Part shown: positions 3,684 to 63,039 of the stretch, piece after piece
How the letters are laid out: every line of letters starts with the position of its first letter
How positions within the stretch are numbered: position 1 is the first letter of the stretch
Source: Ascidia mentula
Taxonomy: Eukaryota; Chordata; Ascidiacea; Phlebobranchia; Ascidiidae
Reading direction: 5' to 3'
Assembly: GCA_947561715.1 (NCBI GenBank)
Contig: OX387203.1
Coordinates: 17,174,001 to 17,238,000 of the forward strand
Length of the DNA stretch: 64,000 bases
Position numbers and translations under genes: made by a program
The notes under the pieces: generated by a model
Told to the model about the DNA's origin: nothing
Databases searched by the model: none
Seen by the model: the letters and a program-made list of their open reading frames with translations, nothing else

Positions 3684-4039
3684 ACTGTATTTGTGCCACA
3701 CTTCGCAGTTGATAGGTGTTCAAAACTTGAAATTATATAAGTATAGATATTGTTTTAAAAGTATTGCTGACTTTGTTGATTGAAATGCTTGTTTTTATAA
3801 CGCATGGTTTGTTTTTGTCACGAGTCAATGCATTATTTGTGTGAACGCAATCGTCTGAAGTCGTATTCACTGATGCGTGAAATAATTTCGGTTTTAGCCA
3901 ATTTCCATTTCGCCGAAATGACGGTGGTAGAAAATGATAGGACTTGGTTGGTAAATGTGAAGTATAACAACACTTATGGGGTGTTTTTAATTTGTTTGTA
4001 GCAAAATGAAAAACAAAGACCCTAAGTATGACATAGGCG
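3684..4039. other. Unique spacer after the satellite
   Basis: Overlapping short frames occur on both strands. None has a recognisable domain or splice structure, and I see nothing further here. Confidence 0.5.
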
Positions 4040-8864: not shown

Positions 8865-9640
8865 AAGGTAGGAAATGTAAGTTTAGCAATGTGGACAAAG
8901 TTGAGGCACATAAACAAAGAAAAAACGCTACAAAAGAAGAAGTGTAAAAACGATAAGGGCGAACACACCTGCACTGTATACTTCAGTAACCACACGGGTT
9001 ATGATGTATACGCCGCTGCAACCACCGCAGGGAATGCTGTATAGACAACACCCCTCGTGTCGAGCTTATCGTACATGCGGTCTTTTGGGTGCGATATTAA
9101 GGAACGCAGGGTGACGGCCGGACGTTCAAAAACCTGAATGTTAAAGTCGCCAAGCAGTCGTTGTAACGTTTCCGAAATTTCAGAAATATACGGTAGTACA
9201 ACTACACCTCTTGTTCTCGTTCAGCATCATCAGTTATCAACAATTCGGCACGAGTATAATGAGCGTACTACCACACCCTCTTGTGTGCGGTCGGGTGCGC
9301 CGAATCCACCGAATCCACTCGTCCACCGCTAGCTTAACCGGTACGTTGGTAAACAAGGAAATCACATCAAAAGACACCATTTTCTCTTCTTCATGCACAC
9401 ACAGCTCTTTTATCTGCGTAACAAAACTGGCAGAATTCTTAACGGTATTATCCGTCTTCCCCACCAGGGGCGCCAAAAACTGGGCCACGTGTTTAGCCAG
9501 ATTATATGTTGGCGATCCGATAAACGAAACTATCGGCCGTAAGGGGACACCTGGCCTGTGAATTTTGGGCAATCCATATAGCCTGTGGGTCCGACCATCT
9601 GATCGCATAATTCAACCGAGGGATAGTACATGTGGTCATT
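8835..9640 (-). mobile_element. Penelope-like retroelement remnant (RT, GIY-YIG part, 3' region)
   Basis: The minus-strand frame at 9608-9237 contains RLYGLPKIHRPGVPLRPIVS, SPTYNLAKHVAQFLAPLVGK and MVSFDVISLFTNVPV, which are hallmark Penelope reverse transcriptase motifs. Further along (9120-9000) come LRSLISHPKDRMYDK, GVVY and, in a shifted frame, SIPCGGCSGVYI. These match the linker and the start of the GIY-YIG endonuclease. The RT catalytic core between them is missing, so the copy is internally deleted and frame-shifted. A hammerhead-like relic closes the 3' side at 8835-8864, as expected for this class. Confidence 0.75.
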
Positions 9641-15885: not shown

Positions 15886-16555
15886 TTATCATTACGAAGC
15901 AAAGCAGTGATGCATTTAAATTAAATTTACGGTTGAATGAGCGCACATGTGCGTGCTGTTGTCGTGGCGAATTTAAGGGTGTTTGGGGCAGGTTTAGTGG
16001 GGTTTTGGGCTATTTCAATTCGGTAGTTACTTGCTGGTGGGTGCTGCTGAAAATTATGTTGAAAATGGAGCAAAAAAATCAGGCTGTATTTGTGGAAAAA
16101 TGAATCTTTTAAGTGTCCAATCATTCGTGAATTTATGAAAGATCCATCCCATATCTACAAATTTTGATCAAAATTAGTCTCCGAAAAAATGGTTTAACCA
16201 CCCCCCTAGGGCCATTTGCCCCCTGGTTACTCAGTATTTTGGTTAAAAAGGCAACAAAAACTGGAACTGGATTTTGCAGAAAAATGAATCGTTCAACTAA
16301 CCACTTATTTGCATTTTTTTGTAAGTTCCAACTCTTCTCAATATACCCCCTGTTGGTCATATGATCTTCCAGGAGGCCCAACAAGTCCTTGCTCTGCACA
16401 GTCTCATCCAGGAGCAAAATTTTGAATTTTAGGTCCCTATGTAAGTCACAAGACCCAACAACGGCCATTGGGAAACAAGCGGAACAGTTGCTAGATGCAT
16501 TACAGCTGAGGGCCTTGAAAACAAGATTTCTCCAATCTAATACCCATATAGGTCC
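15886..16555 (-). mobile_element. TTAA-type MITE, copy A (reverse, one end missing)
   Basis: In reverse it begins GGACCTATATGGGTATTAGA at 16555 and runs through the same blocks as the copies at 17732, 22081 and 51743. It stops near 15886 before the other terminal repeat. It shares with copy D a cccctagggccatttgcccc segment that copies B and C lack. The left breakpoint of the following 4.37-kb tandem unit lies inside this copy, at 16470. Confidence 0.8.
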
Positions 16556-16668
16556 TAAACTTACCCAAAATTTCAAAAGATCAAATCAGTAACAATCCAA
16601 TAGTGAGTAACTTAAATTCAGATGTGCAACAGTTTTTATCATAGTGTGTTCATGATGGATGTGCTATT

Positions 16669-20472: not shown

Positions 20473-20842
20473 ACATTGTGACTTTCATTAAAAAAAACTA
20501 CTGCTATCACTAAAGCTGTTTTCAACATAAAGACTTTAAAACGTACATTAACGCGGGTACTAATACTTTCCAACAACATAGAAATAATTGCGGGTCATTT
20601 TAAATCAGCATTGCGGTCACGAAAGCTAATCACAGATTTTGCAATAATTCGAAGCCCGAGAAATCTTACCCATAGTGTATTTTATTTAAGTGATAATAGA
20701 AATGAATATAATGTCTCCGTTGAGAGCAGTGTTTTCGCCCTTTGGACGTATTGTTGTTGTTGTTATTATACAGCTTTTATCGATGCGGGTAAAAGTAAAC
20801 AACCTACTGCAAGCCTGTATGTTTCTACAAATTAATAAAGTT
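20473..20842. other. 3' flank of collectin 1 and duplication junction
   Basis: ATTAAA occurs shortly after the stop (about 20487) and AATAAA at 20834; either could serve polyadenylation. Unit 1 homology ends near 20822. About 20 bp of unique filler follows before unit 2 starts inside the MITE sequence at 20843. Confidence 0.5.
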
Positions 20843-20938
20843 GGGAAACAAGCGGAACAGTTGCTAGATGCATTACAGCTGAGGGCCTTGAAAACAAGAT
20901 TTCTCCAATCTAATACCCATATAGGTCCTAAACTTACC
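20843..20938 (-). mobile_element. TTAA-type MITE stub at the duplication breakpoint
   Basis: This is the terminal 96 bp of the MITE family, ending ATATAGGTCC, and matches 16470-16555 of copy A. It is left over from the breakpoint of the tandem duplication. Confidence 0.85.
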
Positions 20939-21084
20939 CAAATTCAAAAGATCAAAACAGTAACAATCCAATAGTGAGTAACTTAAATTCAGATGTGCAA
21001 CAGTTTTTATCATAGTGTGTTCATGATGGATGTGCTATTTTGTAGACGCACGAGGATGAAAAGTCTTGCACAAAAGGATTAAAG

Positions 21085-21408
21085 ATGGAAACCCAAAATA
21101 TTACAGTAGACATGTTCAAAATGTCATTCCGATATCGGCGAGAACAACCCAAGCTGGCAAATAGCTTTGTGAGTCTCAATAAAATTATAAAAATAAATGG
21201 GAAAGCCGTAGCGCGAACACTTTCCAAAAGTGATTGTAGTAAATCTCCCATTTGCATGGAAGATTCGTGTAATTGCGACCAAAAGTTGCTTATCTCATTG
21301 AAAATCAAGTGGTGGTTTGCCACGAGTGGTGTTCCCATGGTCAAAGTCATTTGCATGCAAGACTCGTATGATCCAAATAAGGTGGTGTCTCCCCAAAATG
21401 ACGTGTGA
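21085..21408 (+). other. Unit 2 counterpart of the upstream conserved ORF
   Basis: A 107-codon frame from METQNITVDM, near-identical to 16711-17058 apart from an internal 15-bp-scale replacement that keeps the frame. Both octamer repeats are kept. Function unknown; see the unit 1 entry. Confidence 0.25.
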
Positions 21409-21874
21409 CATAACATTGCCCATGGAGACGAAATAATTTGTCAACCAGGTAAGTGGGGTGAAGCGTAGTTAGTGGCAAAATACCACGCGTTGCCACGACA
21501 ACACATCTACAAGCAGATTTTGTAACTTGCCACTTCTTTTACACACAAAAAAAACACAAGCAAATATCAAAAAATAAACTTACAACCAAATTTTTCCAAT
21601 CTCAAATTATTGAAAATTAACAGAACGCAGACCACTTGCCCAGCAAATTAATTAAGCAGCAGGAACAGGAGTTGTTCGTGAATGTGTTAGTGTAAAATTA
21701 AATGAGTCACGCTGAAACGGATCGTCGAACTCTCCGCAGCTTCAAACGTAGTTTTGTCATTGATTTAATCTGTGGTTGGGCCGTTGTAGCCCGAAGCCTT
21801 ATGCGTGTGTTACACAAAGCAATGTTTTAATTGTTTGAAGTGTATTTGCAAGTTACGCTACTACCGATAACAAG

Positions 21875-24847
21875 ATGTTGTACTTTGTGGGCTTTTTGTT
21901 CGTTTCGTCTGGTTTACTGGAAGTAACATGCTAGGATTCTGCAGAAAATCAAACCTGCCGCATTCCAACAGTTTGCATTAATCCTTACTCTACTGAATGG
22001 AAGGAGGTTGATCTTGAAGGGATAAAAGGCGACAAAGGGTTGCAAGGAGTGAAGGTAAGTACTTAGTTTTCGTTGTTTAAGGACCTATATGGGTATTAAA
22101 GGGGAGAAATCCTGTTTTCAAGGCCCTCAGCTGTAATGAATCTAGCGACTGTTCCGCTTGTTTCCCAATGACCGTTGATGGGTCTTTGTGACATACATAG
22201 GGACCTAAAAAAGTTAAAAAAAAAATTTTGCTCCTTTTGGTGAGACTGTACAGAACAAGGACTTGTTGAGCCCTCTGGAAGATCATATGATCAACAGGGG
22301 ATCCTGGGGGGAGAGCTTTGACACTTTTTCAGCAGCCAAATTTGATGCCATTGCATAGAGAAGAGTTGGAACTTACAAAAAAATGCAAATGAGTAGGTAG
22401 TTGAATGATTCATTTTTCTGCAAAATCCAGTTCCAATTTTTGTTGCCTTTTTTGTCAAAACATTAAATAACCAGGGTGGCTAAACCATGTTTTCGGAGAC
22501 TAATTTTGATCAAAATTTGTAGATATGGGATGGATCTTTCATAAAATCAAGAATGATCGGCCACTTAAACGATTCATTTTTCCACAAATACAGCCTGAAT
22601 TTTGTGCTCCATTTTCAACATAATTTTCAGCAGCACCCACCAGCAAGTAACTACCTAATTGAAATAGCCCAAAACCCCACTAAAACTGCCCCAAACACCC
22701 TAAAATTTCGCCATGACAACAGCATGTAACTAAAATGTATCACTGGTTTGCTTGGCGATGCATGGAATTCTATTGTGACACAGGCTACACGGTGAGCATT
22801 TCCCAGCACCGAAACTTATTTTCATAGAAATACCAATATGCGTCCTTAAAAAAAAATTAATTTAGTCAAACACTTGGTTACAACACGCGTTTCGCCTTAT
22901 TCTAGTTTTTACACAAAAACCTGTGGTGACATCTAACAACTTTCCTGTATAACCTGAAATGTTTATGAAATTTACGAACATTGTATTATTTTAAGGGACC
23001 AATGGGACCCAAAGGAGAAAACGGCGCCATAGGGCCAATGGTGAGTGTGAGCTTTAATATGTGGCAATGTTGTCATTGACCCAGGGCCCACGAGAGAAAC
23101 AAATTTGCCGGTGCGAGGACCTTTTTTGTAAATTAGATTGCATGAGATTGTCGGTGAAACCCAGCCTTTTACGACAGAAATTCCCTAATTTCCCTCTCGT
23201 GGGGCCTGCATTGGCCATGACATTTGTCTAACCTTCCACAAAATCAATGTAGTGTTGCGATTTTTTCAATATATTCTGTTGGCACTATGTGTATTTTTTT
23301 AAAACAATTACCTAATAACGAAAACCATGTTTTTGTCGGTAAAGATCTAACAAACAACACACCGCCCTTGACCAGATAGCAGAAGTAAATTGTTTTGGAA
23401 ATATCTGCACCTTTGTACTTTTGTGGCCATGTCGACATTTTAGATTTTAATCCATCGCTTCACAAAACTTTTGGTGGGAGGCCTGTTATACTTTTTGGGC
23501 AAAAATGCCAATAACAATTGCTTTTTTTGATTAATGTTTTTGGCAAATTGCAAATTTTAATTGAATCGTTGTCAAACCAGCACGAGGCAAATAAACACAT
23601 TGAAAATAAACTTTCCGAAACCGTGGTCTTGTACTTTGTGGTTTATTCGAAGATTGCGCCGAGAAGGATTATGTTGTTTTGCAACTTGCGTTGTAGCCCC
23701 AAGCTTTATTCGCGTATTACTCAAAACATGGGTTTAATTCCGACTGACGCTGATCGTTTGCAACTCTGAACAGGCCGATTTCGGCAGTGTTACGACGTCT
23801 ATTCTCGATAACTTATACTTTGCTAGATTTATGTTTAATTGTTTTTACTGCAGGGTCCATCGGGACAAAAGGGAAATGTCGGTGACGCTGGTTCAATGGT
23901 AAGTTCCACGTTTTGTAAAACTGTTTGGTCGGGAATTTAGAAACCTAACTTTCACAACATTAGGCAAATTTACCTACTTGGTAGTTTAACTTAACACAAA
24001 CATAATATTCTACTTGGACACAGGGCCCTAGTGGCAACAAAGGAGCGAAAGGAGATTCGGTGGAACACAGTTCCTTTCTCGGACTTCAAGGTAAACACAA
24101 ATGTCACTTACTAAACTTGATCACATTTAACAAGATTTATTCTTTGTACAGAGCAAGTACGACGACTCCAGTTGGGTAAGTATCGAGCGATACGTTTTCG
24201 AGAATGCTCCCTTTCATAAAGTTTTAATATCGAAAAACCCTAATAAGGACATGAACAATTTTCACAGATAACTATTGGAATGTAAGTTTCACTGCAACCA
24301 ACGGTTATAGATACAAGATCCTATCTCACACTCGTGGGTTCGAACACGGGAAGTCGGAATGTTCAAACATCGGTGGTCGAGTTGCATCGGTTGGAATGAG
24401 AAATGAGACTGTTTACAGGTTGTTTTTATTGAGTTTTTAATTAGTTCAATTGTTAAAATAAAACAAAGTTTCTTTCCTATAAACTTGGAAACTGAAAAAC
24501 TGTAGTGGAGTGTTTGTTTGTTTGTTCTTGGATATATGTTTTTGGTGAAAAAATGTGAAACAAACACAGTAACTAAAGGGAAAAATTAACTGTTTTTTAT
24601 TAGGAATGTGACTGCTCATTTCGGGAATCAGTTTGGAACGATAGGATTGACCGATATTCAAACAGAAGGAACATTTGTGTGGGAAGATGGAGTCACAGCT
24701 GACCAGGGATGGACAAACTGGGTTGCGGGAGAACCAAACAACGCTTTTGATAAGGAAGATTGTGTCAATGTTCTTGGGCCAGGCCTTTGGAATGATATTC
24801 CTTGTGAGATAGTTTCTGTGATCCTTTGTGAATTCGCTCCGATGTAA
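21875..24847 (+). pseudogene. MBL-like collectin, gene 2, with one nonsense codon
   Basis: The exon set matches gene 1: 21875-22054, 22996-23040, 23854-23898, 24024-24090, 24152-24175, 24268-24418 and 24604-24847. All splice sites and phases are preserved. Codon 20 is TAG (21932-21934) where gene 1 has CAG, cutting the product just after the signal peptide. Without that stop the frame would give 251 aa with 18 Gly-X-Y triplets, the four lectin cysteines, EPN and WND. The lectin exons differ from gene 1 at many residues, including a two-residue loss near residue 181 and altered residues around EPN. This is a very young pseudogene, a null allele in this individual, or a sequence error. Downstream Met codons lack a signal peptide. 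Confidence 0.85.
22081..22845 (+). mobile_element. TTAA-flanked MITE, copy C, in intron 1 of collectin 2
   Basis: 765 bp with TTAA at 22077-22080 and 22846-22849. It is nearly identical to copy B and at the same position in the gene, so it was copied with the unit and not inserted separately. Confidence 0.88.
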
Positions 24848-28939: not shown

Positions 28940-29389
28940 TCATTTGGCAGAACTTGAACCCACCAGTAAATCATCGATATAGCAGAATACGAACGGTAAC
29001 CCTTTTAAGACTTTATCCATAAAAGCTTGAAATGATTGTGGAGCATTTCGAAGACCAAAAGGCATTCTTAAATATTCGACAGCTCTCCCAGGAATGACAA
29101 TTGCGGTTTTGGCAATAGAATCGGCCGCCAAAGGAATGTTGAAAAACGCAGATTTCAGATCGAGGGCTGTAAAAATCGTTTTTCCATGTAACCCATTTAC
29201 AAAATCTGCTAAGTGGGGTATAGGTCTCTGCATACTTTCTGTGACAGCGTTTAAAGCTCGAAAATCGCCGCATAATCTCAGACCACCGTCCTTTTTGTTT
29301 ACTACATGCAACGGCGAAGCCCATACACTTTCACTGTCTCTTATGACACCTTTCTTTTCTAATTCATCAAATTGTTCATTACACCCCAC
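28940..29389 (-). mobile_element. Gypsy-type reverse transcriptase fossil fragment
   Basis: About 150 residues of RT are recognisable, including the LRLCGDFRALN and FCYIDDLLV regions. The fragment is isolated and lacks the rest of a pol gene. It is a Ty3/Gypsy-class fossil and clearly incomplete. Confidence 0.8.
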
Positions 29390-29412
29390 ATACCGTTGAT
29401 TATCAGTCTATA

Positions 29413-33667: not shown

Positions 33668-35982
33668 TTAGGTTAAGGACGCATCCCACGGCAGTATCGG
33701 ATGCGTCCGTGTCAAGTACGAATGACTTATTGAAGCGGTCGTAAGGTACCGTTTCAACTGAGGGAAGGCCTCCTGGCATTGGTCGTCCCACTGGAACCGC
33801 TTTCCTTTTTCTGTCTGCCTGTGGAGGGGACCTGCGATCTTCGCATAGTCACGAATAAATTTGCGATAGTAAGATGTTAGGCCTAAAAACTGCCGGATCT
33901 CTTTCACATTACGCGGTGTTGGCCATTCGGAAACCGACTGTACTTTGTTGGGTTCGCATCGTATTCCGTCCTTCGACAACACGTGACCTAAAAAAGCCAC
34001 CTCCTCTTTGAAAAGCGAACACTTAGACGGCTTTAACGTCAGCCCCGCGCTTTGAATTCTCTCTAGGACGTCAGCTAGTCGATTTATGTGTTGCTCGAAA
34101 GTATTGGAGTAAACATTAATGTCATCCAGATACGCTAAGGCACCCCGCCACTCGATCCCGCTTAATACCATGCGCATTAAGCGTTGAAAGGTCGCTGCCG
34201 AATTACATAGACCCATAGGCATTACTTTAATTTCAAACAGACTGGTAAACGCAGTTTTCTCTTGCGAAGAGGCATCCATAGCGACCTGCCAATAGCCAGA
34301 TTTCAGGTCTAGCGTAGAAAAATACGCCGCGTTCGACATTTGGTCAAGGCTGTCGTCTATCCGGGGGATCGGGTAACTGTTCTTTTTAGTTAGCTCGTTT
34401 AGCTTGCGGTAATCGACACAAAAACGAGTCTCACCGGATTTCTTCCGAACCAACACGATCGGACTGCTCTACGGCGATTTAGACGGCGGAATCAGTCCTT
34501 GTTTGTCCATTTCTGCCAAAATCTCTTCCACTTTCGCCTTGTTGTGGTGGGGCATGCGGCGGAGTGGCTGTCGCACTGGAGCGTTATTTCCTGTGTCGAT
34601 CACGTGACGCACCACATCCGTGCGTCCAAGGTCAACGTCAGATGTTGAGAAGGCGTCCTGGTTGGCGCGAAGAAGGGCAAACAGCTCTCCTCTTTGTTCT
34701 TCAGTTAGGTGGTTTCCGATCTGAGCTTGCTCTATAATGCACTTAAACGGGTCACGGTTATCCGCTGTTTCGTGTGGTGACACCGAACAAATTTCTGCGC
34801 AGCCGCCAAAACAATCCGGGTGTTTACATTTCGCCGACGATCCATCGACTACCACACATGCGCCAGACATTGGACATTCGACATTGCCAAAGGCATAAAC
34901 AGGCGCTGCCTGGACGATCCTTGACCCGCTTGGTATTTCTACCGCTTCGTCCCCCAAATTCGCGACATAGACCCCAACAGTGTTACTCTGCGGCATCGTT
35001 ATACTCGTAGCCGTCAACAACCCATATTTTTCCACAAACCCGTCTATCTTCTCAGTTAGAAAAGGGGTTTCCCCGGTGTGCGGCTTTTGGCAAAAGTTTG
35101 CTGTTACACATACCTCGGTAAACGCGGGGATGATGACATCGTCGACGACGTACACCTCGGAAGGTTGTGGCAACGGCACCGGAGAATGCGAGAGTGGCAC
35201 GCTTGCATCCCCCGCTGTTAGCACGTTGGCTTCGTAGCAGATCTGGCATTTGTTTGACTGGAGGAAATCTAATCCTAGAATAAGGTCGTGCGTAAGATTG
35301 TCTACAATGTAAAAACTCGCGTGAGTCATCAATCCTCCCACTCGGAGGGGAAGCTCGACGCAGCCTTTTACCGCCAATTGCTGTCCGCCGGCCCCGACTA
35401 AGTTCTTCTTTGAGCACCTGTTTACCCGGTCGTGCTGCTCGGCGCTTAAGGAATGCCACTTTAGGGTATTAATCAAGCAGACACTGGAGCCGGTGTCCAA
35501 CAATGCACACATTCTCGTCCGGCCGACCAGTAAGTTGACAAACCGCAACGGCGCTGCGGGTGTAGTGGGTTTTTGTACCGACTTTGGCGCCAAACATTTG
35601 GGTGCATCTCGAGCTATACGTTTTTGGTCGAAGTGACATTTTATCTCCGGTGCGCGACGAATCGATCTGGAAAACGAAGGTGTACGTGGTATGTTTTGAC
35701 GTCCCTTGTGCGCATACCCGTGTGCGGGCAGTCGCGCCGCATATGGCCAAGTCCACCGCAACCATAGCAAGTCCGTTCTCGCACGTTGTTGTATTGTGGT
35801 CGTTCGCGCTTTATGGCATCCACTTGAGCTTGTAACTTCGATAAGGTGTCCTCGAACTGTGCGTTCTTTTCCTTGGAACGTTTCTCCATGTCTTCTAACT
35901 TTTTTAGTACTAATCCCATCTCTGATGCTTTTGTGCTTACCGCAGCGACTTGGACAAAGCTCGGTGTTTGTGTATTGACAAC
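33660..35982 (-). mobile_element. Gypsy-type LTR retrotransposon fossil 1 (minus strand, main part)
   Basis: On the minus strand, and in family order from the high-coordinate side, there are a gag tail with a zinc knuckle, an aspartic protease, a linker and a reverse transcriptase reaching the start of RNase H. The rest of pol and both LTRs are absent here. The gag part continues beyond a nested insertion at 40505-40650. It is a broken, truncated copy with several breaks, and the oldest layer of the nest. Confidence 0.85.
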
Positions 35983-36164
35983 TAGTGATGCACCGAAACA
36001 GCTATTTTTATATTCGGCAAAAGTTGCCGAATTAATTCGGCCGAATAAACCGAAACTAATTTTGGTATCCATCTCTTTAAACGCAATAAATTTAAACAAA
36101 ACATATACTGGATTAGATCTTATATCCTATCATACAGCCTTTTTTAAGAATAACCTCGTCTTCT
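35983..36164. mobile_element. hAT-like MITE, left half (interrupted)
   Basis: It begins TAGTGATGCACCGAAA next to ttgacaac. The matching right end, TAGGGATGCACCGAAA in reverse, is followed by ttgacaac at 40505-40512. That is an 8-bp target duplication inside the gag of Gypsy fossil 1. The element is rich in ttcggc/gccgaa words and has no ORF. A second Gypsy element splits it. Confidence 0.85.
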
Positions 36165-39100
36165 GTACTGTTTCATTATTGTCTCTATGTTGAGTATTGT
36201 TTCTATTGCTACCGTATAAAAGAACGCTTGTGACCTCTAAGGCGCATTACAATCAAGTCTGCAAAGCAATGAGTGCTTACGTGTGTCAGAACACTACATG
36301 GTGTCGGAAGTAAACTCAAGATGGATCAAGTTTTGAAGCCGCCTGGTCCGATGCAATGGACGGGAAACGTGGCACAAAATTGGAAAAGCTTCAGGCAGCA
36401 GTTTGAGTTTTATGTGACTGCAATTGGGTACGAGAGGAAAACTTCCAAGGAGAAATCGTCTTTATTACTTTGTACTCTTGGATCAGAAGGTATTACTTTG
36501 TACAACTCGTTCAAATTAGAAGCTGGCGATGAACTTAATTTTGCTACAGTTATAGAGAAGTTTGAAGCGTATTGCTGCCCAAAAAAGAATGTTACTTACG
36601 AGAGGTATAAATTTAATTCTTGTCGGCAAAAGCCAGAACAAAATATTGATCAGTTAACCACGGAGTTAAAACTACTGGCGAAAAGTTGCGAGTTTGAAGA
36701 TCTTCAAGAATCACTCATAAGAGACCGAATAGTGTGTGGTATTGCCAGTAATCAAGTCCGTGAAGCTCTCCTGCGGGAGGAGAAACTTACGTTACTAAAG
36801 GCCATTAACGTTTATCGTTCCAAAGAGGTTACTCAGAGACAAGCAGGATGTATCAACAGTGAGCCCCCGGAAATGTTCATCAATCGAGTGCCAATCAAGC
36901 TGTGCACAAGCACCAGAATTGCAAATTGTGCGACTGGCGTCATCAAAGGTTCCGATGTCCAGCTTATGGCAAAGTTTGCTTCAAATGCGGTGCCAAGAAT
37001 CACTTCTCGAGATGTTGTGACGTTCCCACTGGACCTAATCAGAGTCACCGAGGCGTTGCGGAAGTTTTCAAGGGTGGAGATGAAGAATTTCATCTTAGTT
37101 CAGTGAGTACAAATTCGTGTAATGATTGGCATGTTTCCCTTGAGATAAATGGGTCATTAATGCACTTCAAAGTTGACACTGGGTCGCAAGTAAATATTAT
37201 TACACGCCACGCTCTTAAACAACTTCAACAAAAGGCGCAAATAGTGGATTGTCAAACTGTGCTTCTTGACTATTCGCGTAATCGTATTCCGGTTGCTGGA
37301 AAATGCAACTTATCTGTTAAAAGGGATGGAAAAGTGTACCAGTTGGTTTTTGTTGTGGTGCACAATACAAATGCCTCTTTGATTATTGGCCTTCACGGGT
37401 CCGAAGTTCTTAACCTATTACATCGTGTCCAATCTGTTGAATCAAGTTGTACGTTAGTTGATCACGATTATAAAGATGTTTTTGTCGGACTTGGTTGCAT
37501 TCCAGGTGAACATACAATAAGACTGGACCCAGAGGTGATGCCTGTGGTGCACGCGTGTCGCCGAGTGCCGCTGGCATTAAGAGAAAAATTGAAAACTGAG
37601 CTTCAGCGAATGGAGGCACTCTGTGTAATTCAAAAAGTCAACGAACCCACTGCATGGGTAAATTCTCTTGTAGTTGTCAATAAACCAAATGGGAAATTAC
37701 GCGTGTGTCTCGATCCTAGGGACCTTAATAAAGCAATTATGAGAGAACATTTTGCGCTTCCCACCAGACGAGAATTGATGTCTCAGTTTGCTAATGCCCA
37801 ATATTTTTCAAAGCTGGACGCGTTGTCAGGATTTTGGCAAATGAAACTAACTGAAGAGAGTTCAAAGTTATGTACATTTAACACGCCTTTCGGGAGGTAT
37901 CGCTTTGTTCGTTTACCTTTTGGCATATCTTTGGCCCCCGAAGTTTTTCACAAAGCAATTCATTTGTTATGTGAACATATAGAAGGTGTGGACACATTTA
38001 TGGACGATATTATTGTTTGGGAAAGAACTAAGGAAGAGCATGACGATCGGCTGGAGAAAGTCCTCAAAGCTACACGACAGGCCAACCTTAAACTAAACAA
38101 AGAAAAGTGTTTGTTCGGCGTTCAAAGCTTGACATTCATGGGGGATTTGCTGTGTAAAGATGGATTAAAGCCGGATCCCCGCAAGATTGCTGCGATTGTA
38201 GAAATGAGAAGGCCGACATCTGTTAAAGACCTACAACGCTTTCTCGGAATGGTAAATTTCTTGGGGCAGTTCATACCCAATCTTGCTGCGAAATCAGCCT
38301 GTTTAAGAGATCTGACAAATAAACAGAGTGAGTGGAAATGGACACACATGCATGAGGCAGCATGGCTGAATTTGAAACATGTGGTGGCAAGTCAACCTCT
38401 TCTCAGGTTCTACGACCCTACGGCGCCCATTAAGGTATCAGCAGATGCATCTTTGGAAGGGTTGGGGGCAGTTTTATTGCAGCCGTTTCTGGGTCAATGG
38501 GCACCTGTTGCTTTTGCAGCTCGTTCACTTAGCAAGTCTGAAAAAAGATATGCCGAAATTGAAAAGGAGCTACTAGCAATTTCATTTGCTTGCACCACAT
38601 TTCATCAATATATTTACGGTAGATGTGTTTTTGTGGAAACGGACCACAAGCCCTTGATATGTCTATTTTCTAAATCGCTAAATGATTGTCCATTGCGCGT
38701 GCAAAGGCTTATGATTAAGCTACAAGCATATGATAAAGTAACATTTACCGCAGGAAAAAATATGTTCATTGCAGACACTTTATCTCGAAGCTGCCCACAA
38801 TTCGCTTCTTGCCACGAATCTGATGCTGTGGACGCCTATGTGGAAATGGTGCTTGATTCACTTCCAATACATGAGACGGTGTGGGACAATGTTAAAGTGG
38901 AAACCAGCAAAGATGTTCAGCTGCAAGCACTGTTGGAGATTATTACCCGTGGATGGCCTAAGAAACGGAGTTTGTGCCCACGGCAAGTACAACCATTCTG
39001 GGACTATCGATCTGAACTATCCAGTAACAGGGGAGTTGTTTTAAAAGGTTTAAAGTTTGTTGTTCCACAGAGTTTGCGCGCTAACTTGCTAGCAAAGATT

Positions 39101-40275
39101 CACGTCGGCCATTTAGGAATGGCAAAATGCAAAAATCGTGCACGTGCACTGATGTTCTGGCCAGATATCAATGAAGATATTAACAATCTTGTCATGAAAT
39201 GTCCTACTTGTATGATGTTTCGGCCAAAGTTTCCAAGTGAGCCTCTTCAACCTCACGAAAAACCCGAATTTCCTTTTCAAAATGTGGCCGCGGATTTGTT
39301 CTTCTGGAATGGGCAGGACTATTTGGTCATTGTGGATTACTTTTCCAATTTTCCAGAAGTGTTCAAGCTTGCAAGTACGTCATCAGCTGCTGTTATAAGT
39401 TGTATGAAACAAGCCTTCTCACGACATGGGATTCCATTTAATTTGATTACAGACAATGGCCCACAGTTCAGTAGTGCAGAATTTAAGGAATTCTCCAACG
39501 CGTGGAAATTTTCACACAAAACCTCAAGCCCATATTTTGCGCGATCAAATGGCCTAGCTGAAAAAGCCGTACAAGTGGTTAAAAACGTATTGAAGAAGTC
39601 GAGAGAAAGTGGCGAAGATTTTCATTTAGCCCTACTTGTTTACCGAAGTGCACCATTAGATTGTGGTTACTCACCAGCAGAATTGCTCATGGGAAGATAT
39701 ATTCGAAACAACCTGCCCGTTCAAACCGAAAACCTGAAGGTTAAGTCCTTACCATCAAGAAATTTTGGAAAGGAAAAGAAGGACATGGTAAAATACTTCA
39801 ACAACAGACACAATGTTCGTTCTCTTCCATGCTTAAAGTGTGGGGACTCTGTTAGAATTTTTAACAACGCCAACAAAAAATGGTCTATATGTGGTAAAGT
39901 TCTACGACGTGTGGCTCCCAGATCTTATCTTGTAAAATCCAACGATGGTGCGTTGTATCGTAGAAACCGTTCGCATTCAAGATTTGATGCAACTGTACAT
40001 CCGTATAATGAGTTTTATGTTCCTTCTAATAGTTCGCCGGTAATTAGTAGCAACGAGCCTGTTCAAAATATTGTCACTTTGTCACCTCATGCTGCAGTAT
40101 CACCGGATGGTGGATCGTCAACCAATGCCGTTCTTCCACGCAGGTCAAACAGAAATGTTGTTGCACCCAAACGGCTTATTGAATCAATGTAATTTTAGTT
40201 TCGTGCCTTTAATTTCCGTTGGGGAAGATGTTGCATTATTGTCTCTATGTTGAGTATTGTTTCTATTGCTAAAGT
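36165..40275 (+). mobile_element. Gypsy-type LTR retrotransposon 2 (+ strand, coding part largely whole)
   Basis: A gag frame (to 37106) and an overlapping pol frame (36902-40192) are both open. Overlapping gag and pol frames are usual in this family. Parts in order are gag, zinc knuckle, aspartic protease, reverse transcriptase, RNase H and integrase. A primer-binding-like tggtgtcgg word lies at about 36298. A 38-bp direct repeat (cattattgtctctatgttga and on) occurs near 36171 and 40233 at the two ends. The coding part looks whole and the element young; the terminal repeats are only partly recognisable. Confidence 0.88.
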
Positions 40276-42299: not shown

Positions 42300-42960
42300 T
42301 TATGTTATTTTATGCAAGCGACAAAAGCGCGCAGCATTTGCCTACCGCCCACCGAAACAGGCTAACCCTAAATGGTCATGCCCCTTTATGCAACCATGAT
42401 GTGACACTCTAGTTTTCTTGTTTCCTACTCAATTGGCTTGAAATTTTTAACACATGAACTACAAGGTAATTCGAGTTGTCCTACCAAACCGTTTTCGTTT
42501 AAATACCGTCAATTTTATGCATGAGACAGAAGCGCGCAGCACTTGCTTGCTGTCTGCCGAAACAGGCTAACCCTCAATGGTCATGCCCCTTTATGCAACC
42601 ATGATGTGACGCTATAGTTTTCTTGTTTATTACTCAATTAGCTTGAAATTTTTAACACATCAACTACAAGGTAATTCCAGTTGTTCTACCACACAATTTT
42701 TATTTAAACGTTCTCAATTTGATGCATGAGACAGAAGCGCGCAGTGCTTGCCTACTGTCTTCCGAAGCAGGCTAACCCTCAATGGTCATGCCCCTTTATG
42801 CAACCATGATGTGACGCTATAGTTTTCTTGTTTATTGCTCAATTAGCTTAAAATTTTTGAAACACAAACTACAAATTTTCATTTTAATTCCGCAAATTTT
42901 ATGCAGGAAACTGAAGCGCATGAACACTTGCCTACTGTCCCTTGCTTATCACGTAAACCA
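42300..42960. repeat. Second tandem repeat, also 205-bp period
   Basis: The word agcgcgcag and the following ctaaccctcaatggtcatgc segment recur with the anchor G at 42327, 42532 and 42737, which is 205 bp each. A diverged unit follows at 42916. The sequence is unrelated to the satellite at 1-3683. Each unit also carries gcttgaaatttttaacacat and actacaaggtaatt. Confidence 0.88.
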
Positions 42961-45907: not shown

Positions 45908-47060
45908 TCAGCGCCGGTTCTTCACAATGATCTCTGCTGACATGGTGTACGGTATTGCCATGTAGTTGTCGTCTTTGTCCGCGTACCCGGATGTTGATGC
46001 TGTGTATGACGTTGCCATTAAATTCTTTGCTATTGATTCTTGGTGCACCGTCATTTGTGCATTGAGGACTTTGCATGTTGGTGTTGAGACCGTGTCTAAA
46101 TCGTACCACGGTGTTTCGTATCCTTCCCTCATTGTTATGCCGGTTCCTGATCCTGCTCATATGGAATGACTGTCCCTCTGTAGGAACTTTAAAGGAATGG
46201 TTGTTATGTCTTCTCCCAGTTTGTATCTTGTGACTGAACTGTTGTATTGCAATGGGAATTCGTTTTTGTCGATTCTATCGTGGTCTGCATATGCATTGTT
46301 GGTGATTGTTCCGTAGTCGAAGGCGTTGTCGTACCACATAGAGTCCTTGTCCCATGCAGGTATAAGTGATGTTGCTCTACCACTTACTGTTGATGTTCAG
46401 AGTCTGCATATTCCAGTTGGCGAACTTGATTGTTTCGAAGTTTCCGATTTGTGTTAGTATTGTGGACAATCCTGTGTCGGTGATGGTTCCTGGGCCATTG
46501 GAGTAGGTGAACCTCCATCTATGTCCTGAGCTTGTTCCCCTTTCAGCGTTGCCTAGGCACATTTGTTTTGTGATGATTGCACTGTGTACAATGGCTTTGT
46601 TTGGTCCCATCGTAGTTATTGTTTCCACACCACATATCCTGGAATGTTCCGGCTCCGTCTGTTGCTAGTTTGTTATAGAACCATAGAAACCCCTTTGTAG
46701 TTAGCTTTATGGTGCCAGTGACCAGTGGATTGTTCATTATGATTTGGGTTGTGCCTCCCATCGATTTGTTGTTGCCTGATGACCCCCCCCCCCCCCTGGA
46801 GCTTGCTCTTGCCTATTTTGCTGGGGGTTCTCCTTCTTCTGCTGAGTCATCCATTGACATTAAGTCAAATTGACTTGCAGGTGGACTCTCTCTTTTTCTG
46901 CTCATATCTCCTCTCTAGAGGGTTGGTCCAACTGTCCGGCTGCCTTGACCTTGTTGATTCTAGCCCAGTCTTTCTCAGGCATACGATGTGCAATAAGAGC
47001 CTTAGCCCTAATAATGTTGCTAATGGAAAGAAACAGATGGGAAAGTGAAACTTTTTTGAC
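45908..47060 (-). mobile_element. Endogenous parvovirus-like capsid fossil
   Basis: The minus strand holds a run of capsid-like frames. They are headed by an acidic and basic leader and a polyglycine stretch encoded by the 14-base C run at 46783-46796. A glycine-rich stretch in that place is a feature of parvovirus VP proteins. The sequence is clearly less AT-rich than its surroundings and is read in one direction throughout. It is broken by several changes and no replication gene is seen. The family call is tentative; another small capsid virus is possible. Confidence 0.45.
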
Positions 47061-47760
47061 AAACTTTTTCAGGGGGATTAATCCCCCTGATGATTCTATT
47101 GATTTAGGAGCTAGCTCCAACATTGTATTGACTTTAGCTAAAGTTATAACATCTCACAAAAATCACCTGTTGTATTTTGATAACTGGTTTACCTCCCTTC
47201 CATTGCTGGGTGAGCTTTCGAAAAGAGGAGTATATTGTTTGGGTACAGTTAGGGCCAATCGGCTAGAATTAGAAAAGAATGTTCAGATGGATATGCAGTA
47301 ATAAGAGTTATGTGTTACATTTCTGACCAGCCAGTTTCTTCAATCAAAAGATGGAATAGAGAAATGTGGAATGTCCTAAATTAGTCCATACATATAACCA
47401 AATTATGGGTGGGGTTGATTTGCTCGACTCCCTAATAGGGCTGTATAGAACAAAAATCGGATCCAAAAAATATTATCACAGAACTTTTTTCCACTTTTTG
47501 TGACACAGTTGGGTTAAAAAACAATTGTCTTTACTCGAGTTCAAGTATTCTGTTTCTGACACAATTTCAAAAGAAGGACAAGAGATTGGTTGTAGAAAGA
47601 GAGGAAGACCATCACACAAAACCGAACCCACTAGCATCAATAAGATTGGACAATCTAGATCATTTCCCGAGAAGAGCAACATGCAAACTACCTGGATGCA
47701 AAAGCAGTCCCCATATTTTCTGCTCAAAATGTGAATCATATTTGTGCATTGTGTTTTTTG
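47061..47760 (+). pseudogene. piggyBac-type transposase remnant (C-terminal half)
   Basis: The forward strand reads HLLYFDNWFTSLPLLGELSK then RGVYCLGTVRANRL, which is the conserved yfDNyFTS..L...L..rg....GTvR.NR block. Next comes YNQIMGGVDLLDSLIGLYRT, the MGGVD.lD motif. Last is the C-terminal Cys finger CKLPGCKSSPHIFCSKC, in a different frame. Stops and frame changes separate the parts, so it is dead. It could be related to whatever mobilised the TTAA MITEs here, but no shared ends were found. Confidence 0.8.
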
Positions 47761-50017: not shown

Positions 50018-50336
50018 ATGGGAAAGTGGGCAAAATACGTCAAACAGTACAATCTAGACTGGGAGAAAGATAGCAAGTTGGATCTAACCTGTTGTTGGAA
50101 ATAATACAAAGGCTTATTGCAAATTCTGCAAATGTGAAATACGTTCACATCGCAATGACTTGATCAGTCATTCTGAGACAGAAAAACATAGAGAAAACGC
50201 TATGTCCCTCCTGTTTAGCAATGCTGCTGTGGAAAGGTCATTTTCACAAATGAATTTAATAAAAAATCAATTACGCAATAGAATGGTGCAAAAAATGCTG
50301 GAGGCCATAATGCATACAAAAAGTTATCTGTGGCGT
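50018..50336 (+). pseudogene. hAT transposase, internally deleted (BED finger joined to dimerisation tail)
   Basis: A start region (KYVKQYNLDWEKDSK) is followed by KAYCKFCKCEIRSH and HSETEKHRENA, a BED/TTF-type zinc finger. This runs straight into LLFSNAAVERSFSQMNLIKN and RNRMVQKMLEAIM, the hAT C-terminal dimerisation block. The ~500-residue catalytic core between them is missing and there is a frame change in the first part. This is a deletion derivative. Confidence 0.75.
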
Positions 50337-51056
50337 AAAAAAATATGTTGCAATGGTTTCGTGTCGACAGCTTCCATGTTTGCTCGCTTTACGCAACACA
50401 TGTATGTTAAAAACGAAATGCTTACCTCTGTAAAATTCCATTTTTTTTGTTGGTTTGCTTTTCTGTGTCGAGATTATCTTCACCGGTTTACTGTTAGTTG
50501 TTTTTATTTATGTGTACAATATATATTTTTTATTCGAATTTTGTAGCAGTTTATATAGGGCTTGACTAAAATCCTGACTTCAGCACCAGTGTTTCCAAAA
50601 ATAATTCAGGAAAAATAGCCAAGGAATGTGTGGTGCAATTGCCTGGCTTTCGTAAATGTATGTTGGAATTTGCCTGACTTTTGTGAACAATGAGATAGCT
50701 GGTAATTTCCAATAGAGTGGAAAAGCATTTCCAAACATGTCACAAATTTACATGTGAATACAAAAACAATGGTAGAAGTCGAGCTAATGCCCACATTTGA
50801 GAAGCTGACTGGTGAAGTTTTCCATTAATTGTAATTGTAAATAACCGCAAAGAAAGAAACGCAATTCATTTACCGCACAATGTGAGCTAACAATGTGACA
50901 GCAAATATTTCGCGAAATATGTCTTGTTAACAATAAATGCGTTTGACACAAGGTTATTTGGAATGTCGATTTTGGAATGAAAATATTGAATGTTGTTAGC
51001 AAGTATTTCGTACTTATTTACAAGCCACTTACTTAATAATTCGTTTTATTTTTCAG

Positions 51057-51371: not shown

Positions 51372-51742
51372 AGTATTGGCAATAAATACAGTAATTAGGC
51401 CACAAAATACTTAAACAAAACTAGATCATGCACAAATGCCATGACTAATGAAGAATACATTGCAAAAACTATGTGTTATAACTGACTCAAAATGTGTTGC
51501 GGAATAATAATAAAGGAAATGCTTGCATTTTAAGCTATATTTCAAGTTGTTTTGAAAGCTGGAAGTCAACTTTATTTATGTACATTAGGCATTGGAAAAA
51601 TTTATTTTTGTCACTAGGTGGCGATGGATGACTGGAACAGGTTTAAAATCCTCCTATGATGTTTAAATTACATAAATAAACATATTTTAGTGTAAATTTA
51701 ATGTCTATTTCACCATTTGAAAAATTGGAAATTTCCCCTGAA

Positions 51743-52560
51743 GGACCCATATTAAATTGGAGAAATCCTGTTTTCAAGGCACTCAGCTGTAATGCATCTA
51801 GCGACTGTTCCGCTTGTTTCCCAATGACCGTTGATGGGTATTGTGACTTACATAGAGACCTTAAATTCTTCTAAGTGGAAAAAAAATTTTTGCTCCTGGA
51901 TGAGACTGTACAGAGCAAGGACTTTTTGGGCCTCCCGGAAGATCATATGACCAACAGGGGGGTATAAACAGCCCTGGGGGAGGGCTTTGACACTTTTTCA
52001 GCAACTAAATTTGATGCTATTGCATAGAGAAGAGTTGGAACTTACAAAAAATGCAAATGAGTGGGTAGTTGAACGATTCATTTTTCTGCAAAATCCAGTT
52101 CCAGTTTTTGTTGCTCTTTTTACCAAAAAAACTGAGTAACCAGGGGGGCAAATGGCCCTAGGGGGGTGGCTAAACCATTTTTCGGAGACTAATTTTGATT
52201 AAAATTTGTAGATATGGGATGGATCTTTCATAAAATCACGAATGATTGGACACTTAGACGATTCATTTTCCACAAATACAGCCTGAATTTTTTGCTCCAT
52301 TTTTAACATAATTTTCAGCAGCACCCACCAGCAAGTAACTAACTAATTGAAATAGCCCAAAACACCACTAAAACTGCCCCAAACACCCTAAAATTTGCCG
52401 TGACAACAGCACGCACATGTGCGCTCATTCAACTATAAATTTAAATTAAATGCATCACTGCTTTGCTTGGTGATGTATGAATTTCCATTGTGACTCAGGT
52501 CTACACGGTGGGCATTTCCCAGCACCAAAATTTATTCCATAGAAATACCTATATGCGTCC
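51743..52560 (+). mobile_element. TTAA-type MITE, copy D (818 bp)
   Basis: Runs from GGACCCATATTA to CCTATATGCGTCC with the same internal blocks as copies B and C. It has extra segments such as ggggcaaatggccctagggg, shared with copy A, so it represents the longer form. TTAA flanks are not visible. Confidence 0.85.
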
Positions 52561-57602: not shown

Positions 57603-60600
57603 ATGTTGAAGTATTACTTACAAGTTTTTCCAATCCTGATGTTTTATGGCCAATATCTAAATGAATGCAATTCGCTGATAGGTAAGTTCTGTTTCGAATT
57701 TAATGTTAAAAGCATGAATGGAATTATTTGGATGAGTTTACGGAAATTACTTATATACTTGAATGCAGCAACGTGTGACACAAAGTTATCAGATTTAAAT
57801 CACTCAATTTCAAAAGTAATCTGCCCACCCAACTGCTGGAGACAATATTCGGATTTGTGCGGAAGTGATGATTACGCCTCTGGTCCCCTTTGTCTGGCTG
57901 CAATGCATGCAGGACTGATGGATAGTAAGTTACATTGAAAATAGTTTAAACATGCCAGCTGCATGAATATATCTAAAAGGTTTTACGGAGTTTCTTTGAT
58001 ATCAAACCAATTATTTTAGATGATGGAGGCTACTTTGAAGTATACGAAAGTGACCCAATACATGAATATAAAGGAGTGGACAGGAACGGAGTGAGAAGCA
58101 AATCTTGTTCGTTGGCAAAATGGTCGTACACATTTAAAAGTAAGCTATGCATCGGTTGACATTTAGGTGCATATATTTACCGTTATATTTATAAAATCGA
58201 CAGTGAAATGCAGCACGACAGGAAACAGTGAGTTTTCTGTGACTGATGTATTTTGTCCACCTGGTTGTTTGTCCAACTACGTTTGTGGAACAAATTCGTA
58301 CAACAAGAACTCTTCGGTTTGTGCCTCTGCCATCCACGCTGGAATCTTGTCACGTATGTAGTTGTATTTAATACTTTGTGTTTTTTTTTTAAATCAACCA
58401 TGAATATTTTCAGAAAGTGGAGGATACGTGACGTTTTATTCTAGAAACGGAAGACGCTCATTTTTTGGTTCGACCAAGGGTGGTATAACCAGCAAATCGT
58501 GTGGTTTATCAAGTCAATACTTATCGTTTACTCGTAAGTTAGCAAAAAGCCATCTATCAGTTACTTATGATTAACCTTGCTCAAATCATCAAACTTTCAA
58601 ACAAAGATTGTTTGAGAACTTGTTCTAACAACGGTGAATGTTTGTCTGGAGTTTACGACCAACATTGTTCTTGCAACCACGGGTTGATCGGGTCGGACTG
58701 TGAAATAGGTAAGAAAATTGCCCTGAAAGCTGTAATATATGGTACTAAGAAAAAAATTGTCCGCTAAATCACCCAAAACAAATGTAAGAATTTTGTGTTT
58801 CTTTTGGCATGAAAGTAATGCAATTAATTAAAATTATTGGTTTTCGAAACCTACAATTTTCATGTAGGCCCGTTTCCAACCTGCATGGAGGCATTACAAA
58901 ACGGACTTAACCAAAGCGGAGTCTACAATTTAACTTCTCCTCTACCTTTCCAGGGATATTGCGACATGTATGGTGGAGGTTGGCTGGTGAGTTTTCTTTT
59001 AGAACTGTATCATATGTCGAATGGTTGGGAAGCGTTTGGTGGTCGAAGTTATTGTCTAAACACCTTACCTTGGTTATGATAAATACCAGGTGTTCCAGCG
59101 TCGTTATGATGGATCTATGAGTTTCAATAAAAATTGGGTGGATTACAAGAACGGGTTTGGGAATCTATCAGCAGAATTTTGGATGGGTTTGTATTCCAAT
59201 AAAGCAAACTTTAGCCAAACGTCTCGCAAGTTTAAGCAGAAACTAATTACAAATTTGATGTAAAAGTTTAAATAATAGTTTGTTTTAATTTGAATGCATT
59301 TGCTGAACGGATTGTTAGTTAATATAGAGGCCTACCAAGCAAAGCGTTTCAAACACGCTACGTAACAATTTTATGAGACGTTATGACAGTGTCAGTTAAA
59401 ATGAACAGTCAAATTTAAATTCACCAGGTTTGGAAAAACTGCACGAAATCACCAGTGCGGCGACGAGATGTCGCCTTCGTGTTGATGTTGAGAATTTTTC
59501 TGGAGGTCATGGGTTTGCCGAGTATAGGTAAGAAGACTATGCGTGTTGAACGTTTTTAATTTAGTGGTCCAACGATAACTTGCCTGATGCTGCACTGTTT
59601 TTCTGTCAGTAAACAGAAAAACATCACGAACATGTCATGGTAAAATGTTTGTGCATTTTTTCATTGTTTTTTTTCTGGTAATTTACGAAATCATACTTTG
59701 TGTAAATATTCCATTAAATTTGAAGTAAATGAAACCGATCTTTTCTACGTGAAATTTAATTAATCCATATAATTATCATCAGTAACAGAAAGCAAACGTT
59801 TTTTCCAAACGGCCATTTCTCCATAACTTCTTGAATTGTTTGGCCATTATTTATGCCCTGCCTTTGTTGGCAAAAAGTGTTACCTGGAAACTTGTTTCTT
59901 ATCTTTAACTTTTTTGAATTCCTGTAAAATCCATGATTTGGAGTTGTAGATCGGGCTTCCATCTTGCTGCAGACTTCTCTCTCCTGCTTTGTGCCATTGC
60001 CCTGTTTCCAACACATCTATGTTTTCTAGACTTCATTTTCAAACCTATAGCAGAGCTGATTTGTAAGTGTGGTGTGACCAAGGAATGCCATCTGTATATT
60101 TCTCTACTTATGCAATTGCTATTCTTTTTAAGATTCCTCAAGCCTGGAGCTTTTGTTGTCTAAATACAAATCATTTATTTTTCAACAATTTCGCAGTGCC
60201 AACATATAATTAAGAAAATACACCATTCGAAATCCAAAACTTAACACTACAACTAATATCGTTGTTTTTCCACTTTTCTCTCAAGTGAACTTTAACTTTC
60301 ATAACTACACATAACCTTTATAACTTCCCCAACAGATATATGAACGAGCTCTTTGCTTGAATAAATTGGGGGCCTCTCTCCACTCTCTAAAATTTCCATG
60401 AACAAGGCATAGAAGATTCTGTGACAAAATGGAAACTAAATTAAAATAATTCACTAACCGGTATCATATTTAGCAGCTTTCAGGAAATTTTCGGACCTGG
60501 ACTTTGATTTTCCAAGTCTTTCAATGTTGACACACCGATTCTCTCCAAATATGACGACCTTTAATCTGTTCCAGGGATAGAAAATTTGCAATATTTTTTT

Positions 60601-63039
60601 TTTCTTAGCAGAACCGAATAGGTTCACAATTTAAAAGGTATCTTGTTACAAAATGTATGCAGTATTTTTCTTGCTGAAAATAAAGGATTAGATTTGAATA
60701 CTCAAATATCTATCTGCAAAGCCAGTAATACCAGCGGTGTGATTTATTGGGTTGAAAATCTTTAAAAATGTAGTTTGTAAAATTGGGATGAAGTGAAAAG
60801 TGCTGCCGGAGTGTCCAAGAATAATTTGTATTGGAGAAACATCGTTGAATATTTTTTCAATTACTCTTCCCTGCTGTATTATGAATGAAGATCGTCAACT
60901 TCAAAACATTTCATGGGAATCTTTGGTCTTCAAATCACTTAAAATCTTAGAAACGATATGTAGCTCTATTCCTTATTTGACTACTGCAGTATTTTTCAAC
61001 CTTTGTGAGCCACGGAACACTTTTTTTACTGAAATAATCTTGCGGAACACCAAACTGTTGGAAGTACTGCGGCATTGTACTTAACCAGCAACAGCAGGCT
61101 CGAGCAATTACATTCTTTTTATTACAAAACGATTCTTATTGTTACACAACATCACTGCTCTATTTGTGTAGGGTCTATATGAAATGGCTGAAAAAAAAAC
61201 AGAAAAAGCTTCCTCGATGTAAATTGTTTCGACAGTAGTGCTTTTTGCGCCTCATAGTCCTGGCAAATGCGTTCCAACAAAAATAAATACAAAAGAAATC
61301 CTAAAATATTTATAGTAGCTCTAATTTGTAACGGGGAAGTTCACAAATGACCTTTTACCTATAATTACGTCATGTACGACATAGAAACAGTTAATTAAAC
61401 ATTGCAGTGATGATAGTAATTTTACACTCTATTTATAATTAAAAAATCGATTATCCGTCTGCTTGAACAATAATAAAAAGAATCGAATAAAATTTAGTAG
61501 ACTGCCGGCAAAAGTACGGCAAGCTCACGTATAATATAAATCACTGATTATATGCCGTAAGATGCTGCGTAGATTTTTACAGCGCCGAAGCCTTTTATTT
61601 ATTTTTTAACAGTACAATTTCTTACTGGAAATGGCAATGTGAGGAATACCCCTTGATTGCGTCAGATTTGGGATTCACAGAATAGTCTTGTGTTTTAATG
61701 TATTTCTTCGTTTTTCGGCATATTTATGTAACAAAGAGTTTAGGGACGCGATCGCTTGGTCGCGGATTGCTGGGACCGAACTCAATGGGGCTCTGATTGG
61801 GTCAAACGCCACCTTGTTGCGCTTGGAGAATGTGGCTGCAGAAAACCTTGTTTTCGTTTGATTCAAAATTTCGGAGGCGATAGTCGCAGTATTGCAAGAA
61901 AGTCTGTTGCCCAGATAAGTTTATGCGCTCGTTGGGGGCCGTCTCACTGTGACAAAATCTTGAGTGTCAAGTACCGACTTTTGCCTTGGCGTTTCATGTC
62001 ATCTTGACTGTAAAGTTACATTGATCCGTGTTGTCTTTCAGCTACATAAATTCTCTGTAATCGCCTTAAACGGATGTTTTTCTGCAAAATAAATTCTGTC
62101 ACAACAGAACATAATTAAACGCGTGTTACGGAAAAGTCTGCAAAAACCCATCCTGACTTTGGCTTGTCCTGGAAGATATTCCAAATCCCTTTTGCATTGT
62201 CAGCATCGTAAGCTTTATTGGCGCATCTTATTGTAAATGGAACAGATTTCAGGCTGCGTATAATTTGCCTCAAGTCGTTCGTAAACTTTACTTTAAGTTT
62301 GAAATTCCTTCTCGAAGCTCTAATCCTACCTTGTTTTTTTGCCTAATACAACGTGTCACACATGTTGTCAGCATTTATTTCCCCATGCAATAAACCAATA
62401 TGAGCGGGTCGATTTAAAACAACGAAATATCCGTTGTTATTTAAACTACTTTGCATGAAATCCAACTTTATGTCATTGTCTTTGCAGTAATTTCAGCATT
62501 GGCGATGAAGGAAGTTCTTATAGAATAAATGTGTCCGGATATTCGGGAAATATAGGAGATTCTTTGGAAAGAAATAATGGGATGAAATTTTCAACTCGAG
62601 GCAGAGACAACGATTTGTGAGTAATAAAGATACAACGTGTCTGATTATATTTCTGTTTACTAACGAAGCAAAACGAGTTGTGTCGGAAAAGAAGAAATGC
62701 ATTTTCTCAAATAGTTGATTTTCGCTTACAAAGTTAACCGGAAAAAAATTAAAAATCATCTGAAACAGGGAGTTGCTTTAAGTTTCAGTCATGATGCAAC
62801 CGAGTTTCAATATGGTATAACACATAGTTACTGACAATCAACTTGATTATAATTAAAGGTCACCTAGTCATTGTGCTGCATGTTGTGGTGGAGCATGGTG
62901 GCATCGTAGTTGTTCACATGCCCAACTCAATGGTCGGTGGTCGAGAACTTCTACTCTGTACAACGCTATGAGTTGGTGGAACTGGAAGAGATCATGGGGT
63001 GGAATTATGACGTCAGAGATGAAAGTGAAATGCGAATAA
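57603..63039 (+). CDS. Secreted LCCL-LCCL-EGF-fibrinogen-domain protein (450 aa)
   Basis: Eleven exons with good splice sites and matching phases: 57603-57681, 57769-57924, 58020-58139, 58204-58353, 58414-58533, 58607-58708, 58868-58986, 59090-59186, 59428-59527, 62488-62616 and 62859-63039. Residues 1-24 are a signal peptide. LCCL 1 (27-118) and LCCL 2 (119-208) each keep the four family cysteines and the YxxxSxxCxaAxHAG-type motif ([31 protein letters not shown]). A six-Cys EGF module spans 209-242 (Cys 210, 214, 220, 229, 231, 240). The fibrinogen-related domain (243-450) has [47 protein letters not shown] and GAWWHRSC, in full order and near full length. It is secreted and probably binds a ligand through the fibrinogen domain. 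Intron 9 (~2.96 kb) is the only long one. I know of no named family with this order. Confidence 0.93.

Follow-up and report, generated by a model that had tools for sequence, protein, structure and literature searches.

A gene of Ascidia mentula joining two LCCL domains, an EGF-like domain and a fibrinogen-related domain: a candidate recognition or adhesion protein

INTRODUCTION

A tandem pair of LCCL domains is found in the secreted proteins CRISPLD1 and CRISPLD2. CRISPLD2 (Lgl1), which has two LCCL domains, binds lipid A (PMC10892792, PMC3683062), both LCCLs with high affinity according to work cited in the first of these sources. The predicted secreted protein of Ascidia mentula described here has a tandem pair as well, but at the N-terminus; in the CRISPLD proteins the LCCLs are C-terminal, and a CAP/SCP domain stands where our protein has an EGF-like domain and a fibrinogen-related domain (FReD). 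Cochlin (LCCL-vWA-vWA) is similar in that an N-terminal LCCL follows the leader, but this LCCL is single, and vWA domains take the place of the EGF-FReD part. The LCCL of cochlin is known to be released by protease; once cleaved, it holds bacteria in check and attracts immune cells (PMC10892792).

Horseshoe-crab factor C, a defence protein, likewise unites LCCL, EGF and a lectin-type (C-type) module in one chain, but it has complement-control (sushi) domains and a serine protease and no FReD (PMC10892792). LCCL beside C-type lectin domains occurs in factor C and also in a predicted Fugu gene (PMC514892). In Plasmodium, the secreted proteins CCp1 and CCp2 (LAP2/LAP4) each combine LCCL with a predicted fibrinogen-related/COLFI domain (PMC10892792, PMC11285972); here, however, the FReD precedes the LCCL, discoidin, ricin, levanase and ApiA domains are added and EGF is absent. 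The FBG prediction in CCp1/CCp2 is weak, and it overlaps the COLFI prediction (PMC11285972).

On the fibrinogen side, FIBCD1, the ficolins and tachylectin-5A share with our protein a complete FReD with a calcium-site Asp pair and a pocket disulfide; our protein differs in having LCCL added and in lacking a conserved S1 acetyl pocket and a collagen stalk. In the FIBCD1 structure Asp393 and Asp395 are calcium ligands, and the acetyl pocket S1 consists of Tyr405, His415, Tyr431, Ala432 and Trp443, residues mostly common to TL5A and ficolins (PMC3908420). Tenascins also end in a FReD, but have no LCCL, while our protein has neither FN3 repeats nor an assembly region. Ascidians have secreted fibrinogen-like proteins of their own: v-Themis and v-Themis-like, located in the vitelline coat (the Ciona egg coat) and used in gamete recognition (PMC7018956, PMC8849226). 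LCCL is not mentioned for them, and they are paired with PKD1-like sperm receptors, none of which was seen among the scanned ORFs of the stretch described below.

RESULTS

Gene structure and origin of the mosaic

The window, i.e. the whole 64-kb stretch of A. mentula DNA that was analysed, contains at 57603-63039 (+ strand) a gene whose 11 exons, rebuilt from the genomic sequence, join in frame into an uninterrupted coding sequence of 1353 nt (450 aa plus stop, no internal stops). The coordinates, exon count and protein length given in a preliminary description of this DNA proved correct on exon rebuilding and translation. The features are as follows.

57603-57681, + strand: exon 1, with the start codon ATG (in frame with all of the CDS) and a hydrophobic leader; ends in phase 1
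57769-57924 and 58020-58139, + strand: exons 2-3, LCCL domain 1 (aa 27-118), a 1-1 module with an internal phase-1 intron
58204-58353 and 58414-58533, + strand: exons 4-5, LCCL domain 2 (aa 119-208), a 1-1 module
58607-58708, + strand: exon 6, EGF-like domain (aa 209-242), a 1-1 exon with the six-Cys spacing
58868-58986, 59090-59186 and 59428-59527, + strand: exons 7-9, N-terminal part of the FReD (Pfam Fibrinogen_C)
59528-62487, + strand: intron 9, at 2960 bp the one long intron of the gene; GT-AG, phase 2
62488-62616 and 62859-63039, + strand: exons 10-11, C-terminal part of the FReD, with D388, D390, the remodelled S1 pocket and the stop codon TAA
63239-63244, + strand: candidate poly(A) signal AATAAA, ∼200 bp past the stop (motif scan)

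All 10 introns are of GT-AG type (lengths of introns 1-10: 87, 95, 64, 60, 73, 159, 103, 241, 2960 and 242 bp), and G+C content is generally higher in exons than in introns. Residues 1-26 form a probable signal peptide, with the 9-residue hydropathy maximum (2.08) at aa 6.

The preliminary description had spoken of perfectly phased exons. Indeed, the frame is intact and every module border is in phase 1: exons 1|2 (leader/LCCL1), 3|4 (LCCL1/LCCL2), 5|6 (LCCL2/EGF) and 6|7 (EGF/FReD). Every module upstream of the FReD is therefore symmetrical (1-1), as is classical for exon-shuffled units, and the mosaic probably arose by shuffling of such phase 1-1 modules.

The LCCL exons and the EGF-FReD exons might instead belong to two genes, or to two transcripts, and have been joined wrongly. 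Tunicates possess operons, an operon or readthrough is conceivable here, and intron 5, which precedes the EGF exon, does contain an in-frame ATG. We consider this explanation highly improbable. Separate genes are hard to fit into junction introns of only 73 bp (LCCL2-EGF) and 159 bp (EGF-FReD); exon 5 is not closed by a stop codon ahead of its donor site, the motif scan found both junction introns free of AATAAA, and the frame continues correctly with matching phases. Nor is there any leader-like sequence after the intron-5 ATG or before the EGF exon. Phases, tiny introns and intact frame thus argue for a single gene for LCCL and FReD, as had been proposed.

Domain composition

The Pfam search of the 450-aa protein detected LCCL twice (E 8.2e-33 over the protein; 5.9e-16 for LCCL1 and 8.8e-18 for LCCL2 scored singly), with scores of 58.9 and 64.7 bits against a gathering cut-off of 22.6 for LCCL (PF03815). 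The best LCCL structure match of the pair is the cochlin LCCL, 1jbi (E 5.7e-11). Fibrinogen_C (PF00147) is complete, with aa 248-448 covering profile positions 5-219 of 221 (E 1.9e-55), and the FReD matches the solved structures of FIBCD1, tenascin-R, ficolin-2, angiopoietin, fibrinogen and tachylectin-5A with E down to 1.8e-47. These LCCL and FReD matches are far beyond chance, and the two LCCL modules and the complete fibrinogen-related domain noted earlier are upheld by both Pfam and structure matches. No other domain, CAP/SCP, FN3 and ZP included, was above the Pfam threshold in the 450-aa protein; no Gly-X-Y collagen run was present in it, or near the gene in the scan of the window.

The EGF module noted earlier shows the complete set of six cysteines at EGF-type intervals, but its Pfam EGF score (19.9 bits) is just under the cut-off of 21.5, and teneurin-type EGF models matched it weakly. 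The cysteines are at 210, 214, 220, 229, 231 and 240, with the spacing C-x3-C-x5-C-x8-C-x-C-x5-G-x2-C. The LCCL-LCCL-EGF-FReD architecture is real.

The ligand face of the FReD

Identities counted from the printed HMMER alignments of the FReD were 42.8%, 42.4% and 40.8% for FIBCD1, tenascin-R and ficolin-2, respectively; with values so nearly equal, the domain is clearly assignable to none of the three. The calcium-site aspartates are kept (D388 and D390 align with D393 and D395 of FIBCD1), as is the pocket-linking disulfide (C396/C409 align with C401-C414). The S1 residues of FIBCD1 fare differently: Tyr405, His415, Tyr431, Ala432 and Trp443 correspond here to Cys400, Ser410, Leu424, Tyr425 and Ser436. 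Shifting a nearby gap by one could pair Tyr425 with FIBCD1 Tyr431; the remaining replacements stay.

Beyond the usual four cysteines, the FReD has four more (329, 399, 400 and 449), which point to a remodelled surface of the predicted fold. Cys399 and Cys400 are vicinal and occupy the place of FIBCD1 Phe404-Tyr405. The strands flanked by C329 and C449 are neighbours in fibrinogen-like folds; C329 and C449 could therefore pair in a putative disulfide.

These alignments bear on whether the protein is a classic lectin of the ficolin/tachylectin kind, with a FReD that binds N-acetyl sugars via S1 and with LCCL in an accessory role. The identity to ficolin-2, the retained aspartates and the retained pocket disulfide would agree with such a lectin, but all five S1 residues listed for FIBCD1 are replaced in the HMMER alignment and the vicinal cysteines sit within the altered site, so that we regard it as improbable. 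With the S1 residues replaced, ficolin-like recognition of acetyl sugars is not supported, even though the calcium Asp pair is kept; this bears on the sugar binding that the preliminary description had borrowed from ficolins.

A matrix or egg-coat role

A different function is adhesion in the extracellular matrix or egg coat, where cells, matrix or sperm would be the targets of the FReD and a tenascin-type EGF, while the LCCL pair would serve assembly or adhesion and not binding of microbes. The consensus of the tenascin-type EGF is C-x3-C-x5-C-x4-6-C-x-C-x5-G-x2-C (PMC11401434); the module here fits it except for x8 between Cys3 and Cys4, and a hemichordate tenascin-like protein is reported to deviate in the same way (PMC11401434). 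The FReD is as near to tenascin-R as to FIBCD1, the acetyl pocket is lost, and the occurrence of v-Themis proteins in the Ciona egg coat provides a precedent. By sequence, EGF spacing and FReD similarity at the tenascin-R level would suit a matrix role equally well, and they keep that role alive.

On the other hand, the protein has no FN3 or ZP domain (the EGF exon is directly followed by the first FReD exon, with no FN3 repeats between), and known LCCL proteins tend to have antibacterial roles, as far as PMC10892792 describes them. Overall, we treat a matrix or egg-coat role as a serious though not probable alternative. We also considered, and dropped, the idea of a v-Themis locus: Pfam gave no match to PKD, REJ or PLAT among the 134 window ORFs of ∼70 aa or more (a set that ends at the window edges and passes over small exons), and the PKD1-like s-Themis partner is thus absent among the scanned ORFs, which also speaks against an egg-coat role.

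Surroundings of the gene

The 64-kb window has no second copy of the LCCL-FReD gene. Relatives were found neither in viral contigs nor in bacterial or archaeal genomes, and no RNA families or tRNAs were found.

Two collectin-like genes are located in tandem at 17526-20472 and ∼21875-24847 (∼4350 bp apart, parts matching at up to 99%), which suggests a recent duplication. Each has short Gly-X-Y collagen exons; its C-type lectin exon carries the mannose-type motifs EPN and WND. One survey reports collagen-bearing mannose-binding lectins from no groups other than vertebrates, cephalochordates and urochordates (PMC11312191). Together with the short introns, these genes would point to an invertebrate chordate.

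The remainder of the window is rich in transposable elements. Two Gypsy-type retroelements occupy 36273-40189 (+ strand) and 33671-36126 (− strand); the former has gag-like, protease, reverse transcriptase, RNase H and integrase parts across two long ORFs. Pfam tallies and motif reading assigned further remnants to a piggyBac-type transposase (46864-47298), a hAT dimerisation region (50088-50543), a Penelope-like reverse transcriptase (9240-9611) and a further Gypsy reverse transcriptase (28943-29407). Arrays of a 205-bp repeat unit are at 217-3823 and 42307-42921; the array at 217-3823 recurs after ∼2076 bp (15 copies, 60-100% alike). Another repeat, dispersed and several hundred bases long, occurs in both orientations (16221-16585, 17728-18359, 20841-22707 and 51646-52475), with copies inside introns of both collectin-like genes and also ∼5 kb upstream of the LCCL gene.

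DISCUSSION

How new is the architecture? The preliminary description knew of no family that pairs LCCL with a fibrinogen domain. For animals no exception came to light: neither the pairing nor LCCL-LCCL-EGF-FReD as a whole was found in the open-access literature on LCCL and fibrinogen, covered partly by title and abstract, or in that on LCCL in ascidians, tunicates, Ciona, amphioxus and other invertebrates. As a general statement it does not, because the LCCL of Plasmodium CCp1/CCp2 stands beside a predicted fibrinogen-related domain, so that the pairing is not unprecedented. The protein looks like an undescribed animal mosaic built from familiar recognition modules.

We propose that the product is a secreted, disulfide-rich mosaic protein for recognition or adhesion, of ∼47 kDa without its leader, laid out as a signal peptide, a tandem LCCL pair, a single EGF-type spacer and a C-terminal calcium-binding FReD. 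Lipid A binding by the LCCL pair is plausible, given that each of the two LCCLs in CRISPLD2 binds it; by this analogy the pair would bind microbial surface lipids (lipid A type ligands) and may be taken as a sound lead for microbial lipid binding. The C-terminal face of the FReD, stabilised by calcium, would hold a second partner, and the FReD ligand is probably other than the acetyl sugar of ficolins. Bridging by both heads, with microbes clumped or marked as a result, would be the most likely mode of action.

Of the two-headed pattern-recognition protein suggested in the preliminary description, the LCCL head remains reasonable in view of CRISPLD2 and cochlin, whereas the FReD head is weakened, as the acetyl pocket is not conserved. 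We infer the secretion, ligands, immune use and oligomerisation of the protein. Among functions of a secreted modular recognition or adhesion protein, we rate defence as more likely than egg coat or matrix. The collectin-like genes were counted in favour of defence; at a distance of 33 kb, their presence may be a coincidence. A secreted defence or recognition bridge employing the LCCL pair has, in our judgement, about an even chance of being the correct description. More speculative, and rather unlikely in its full form, is an undescribed animal LCCL-LCCL-EGF-FReD humoral family, independent in origin from the FReD-LCCL proteins of Plasmodium, in which a lipid-A-binding LCCL pair and a FReD with a remodelled Cys-rich face would together make a soluble sensor or agglutinin of bacteria with two ligands.

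Given that its extracellular modules are of the exon-shuffled kind, their combination in this gene is a moderate and not a deep surprise. What it presents is a fibrinogen-type head joined to LCCL in an animal, a pairing for which the searched literature offers no parallel other than the weak one in malaria-parasite proteins. Should LCCL and FReD have different microbial ligands, the protein would be a compact natural two-ligand receptor, easily expressed and tested; if it acts in the egg coat or matrix, it would widen the set of fibrinogen-like proteins known from the gametes and matrix of invertebrate chordates.
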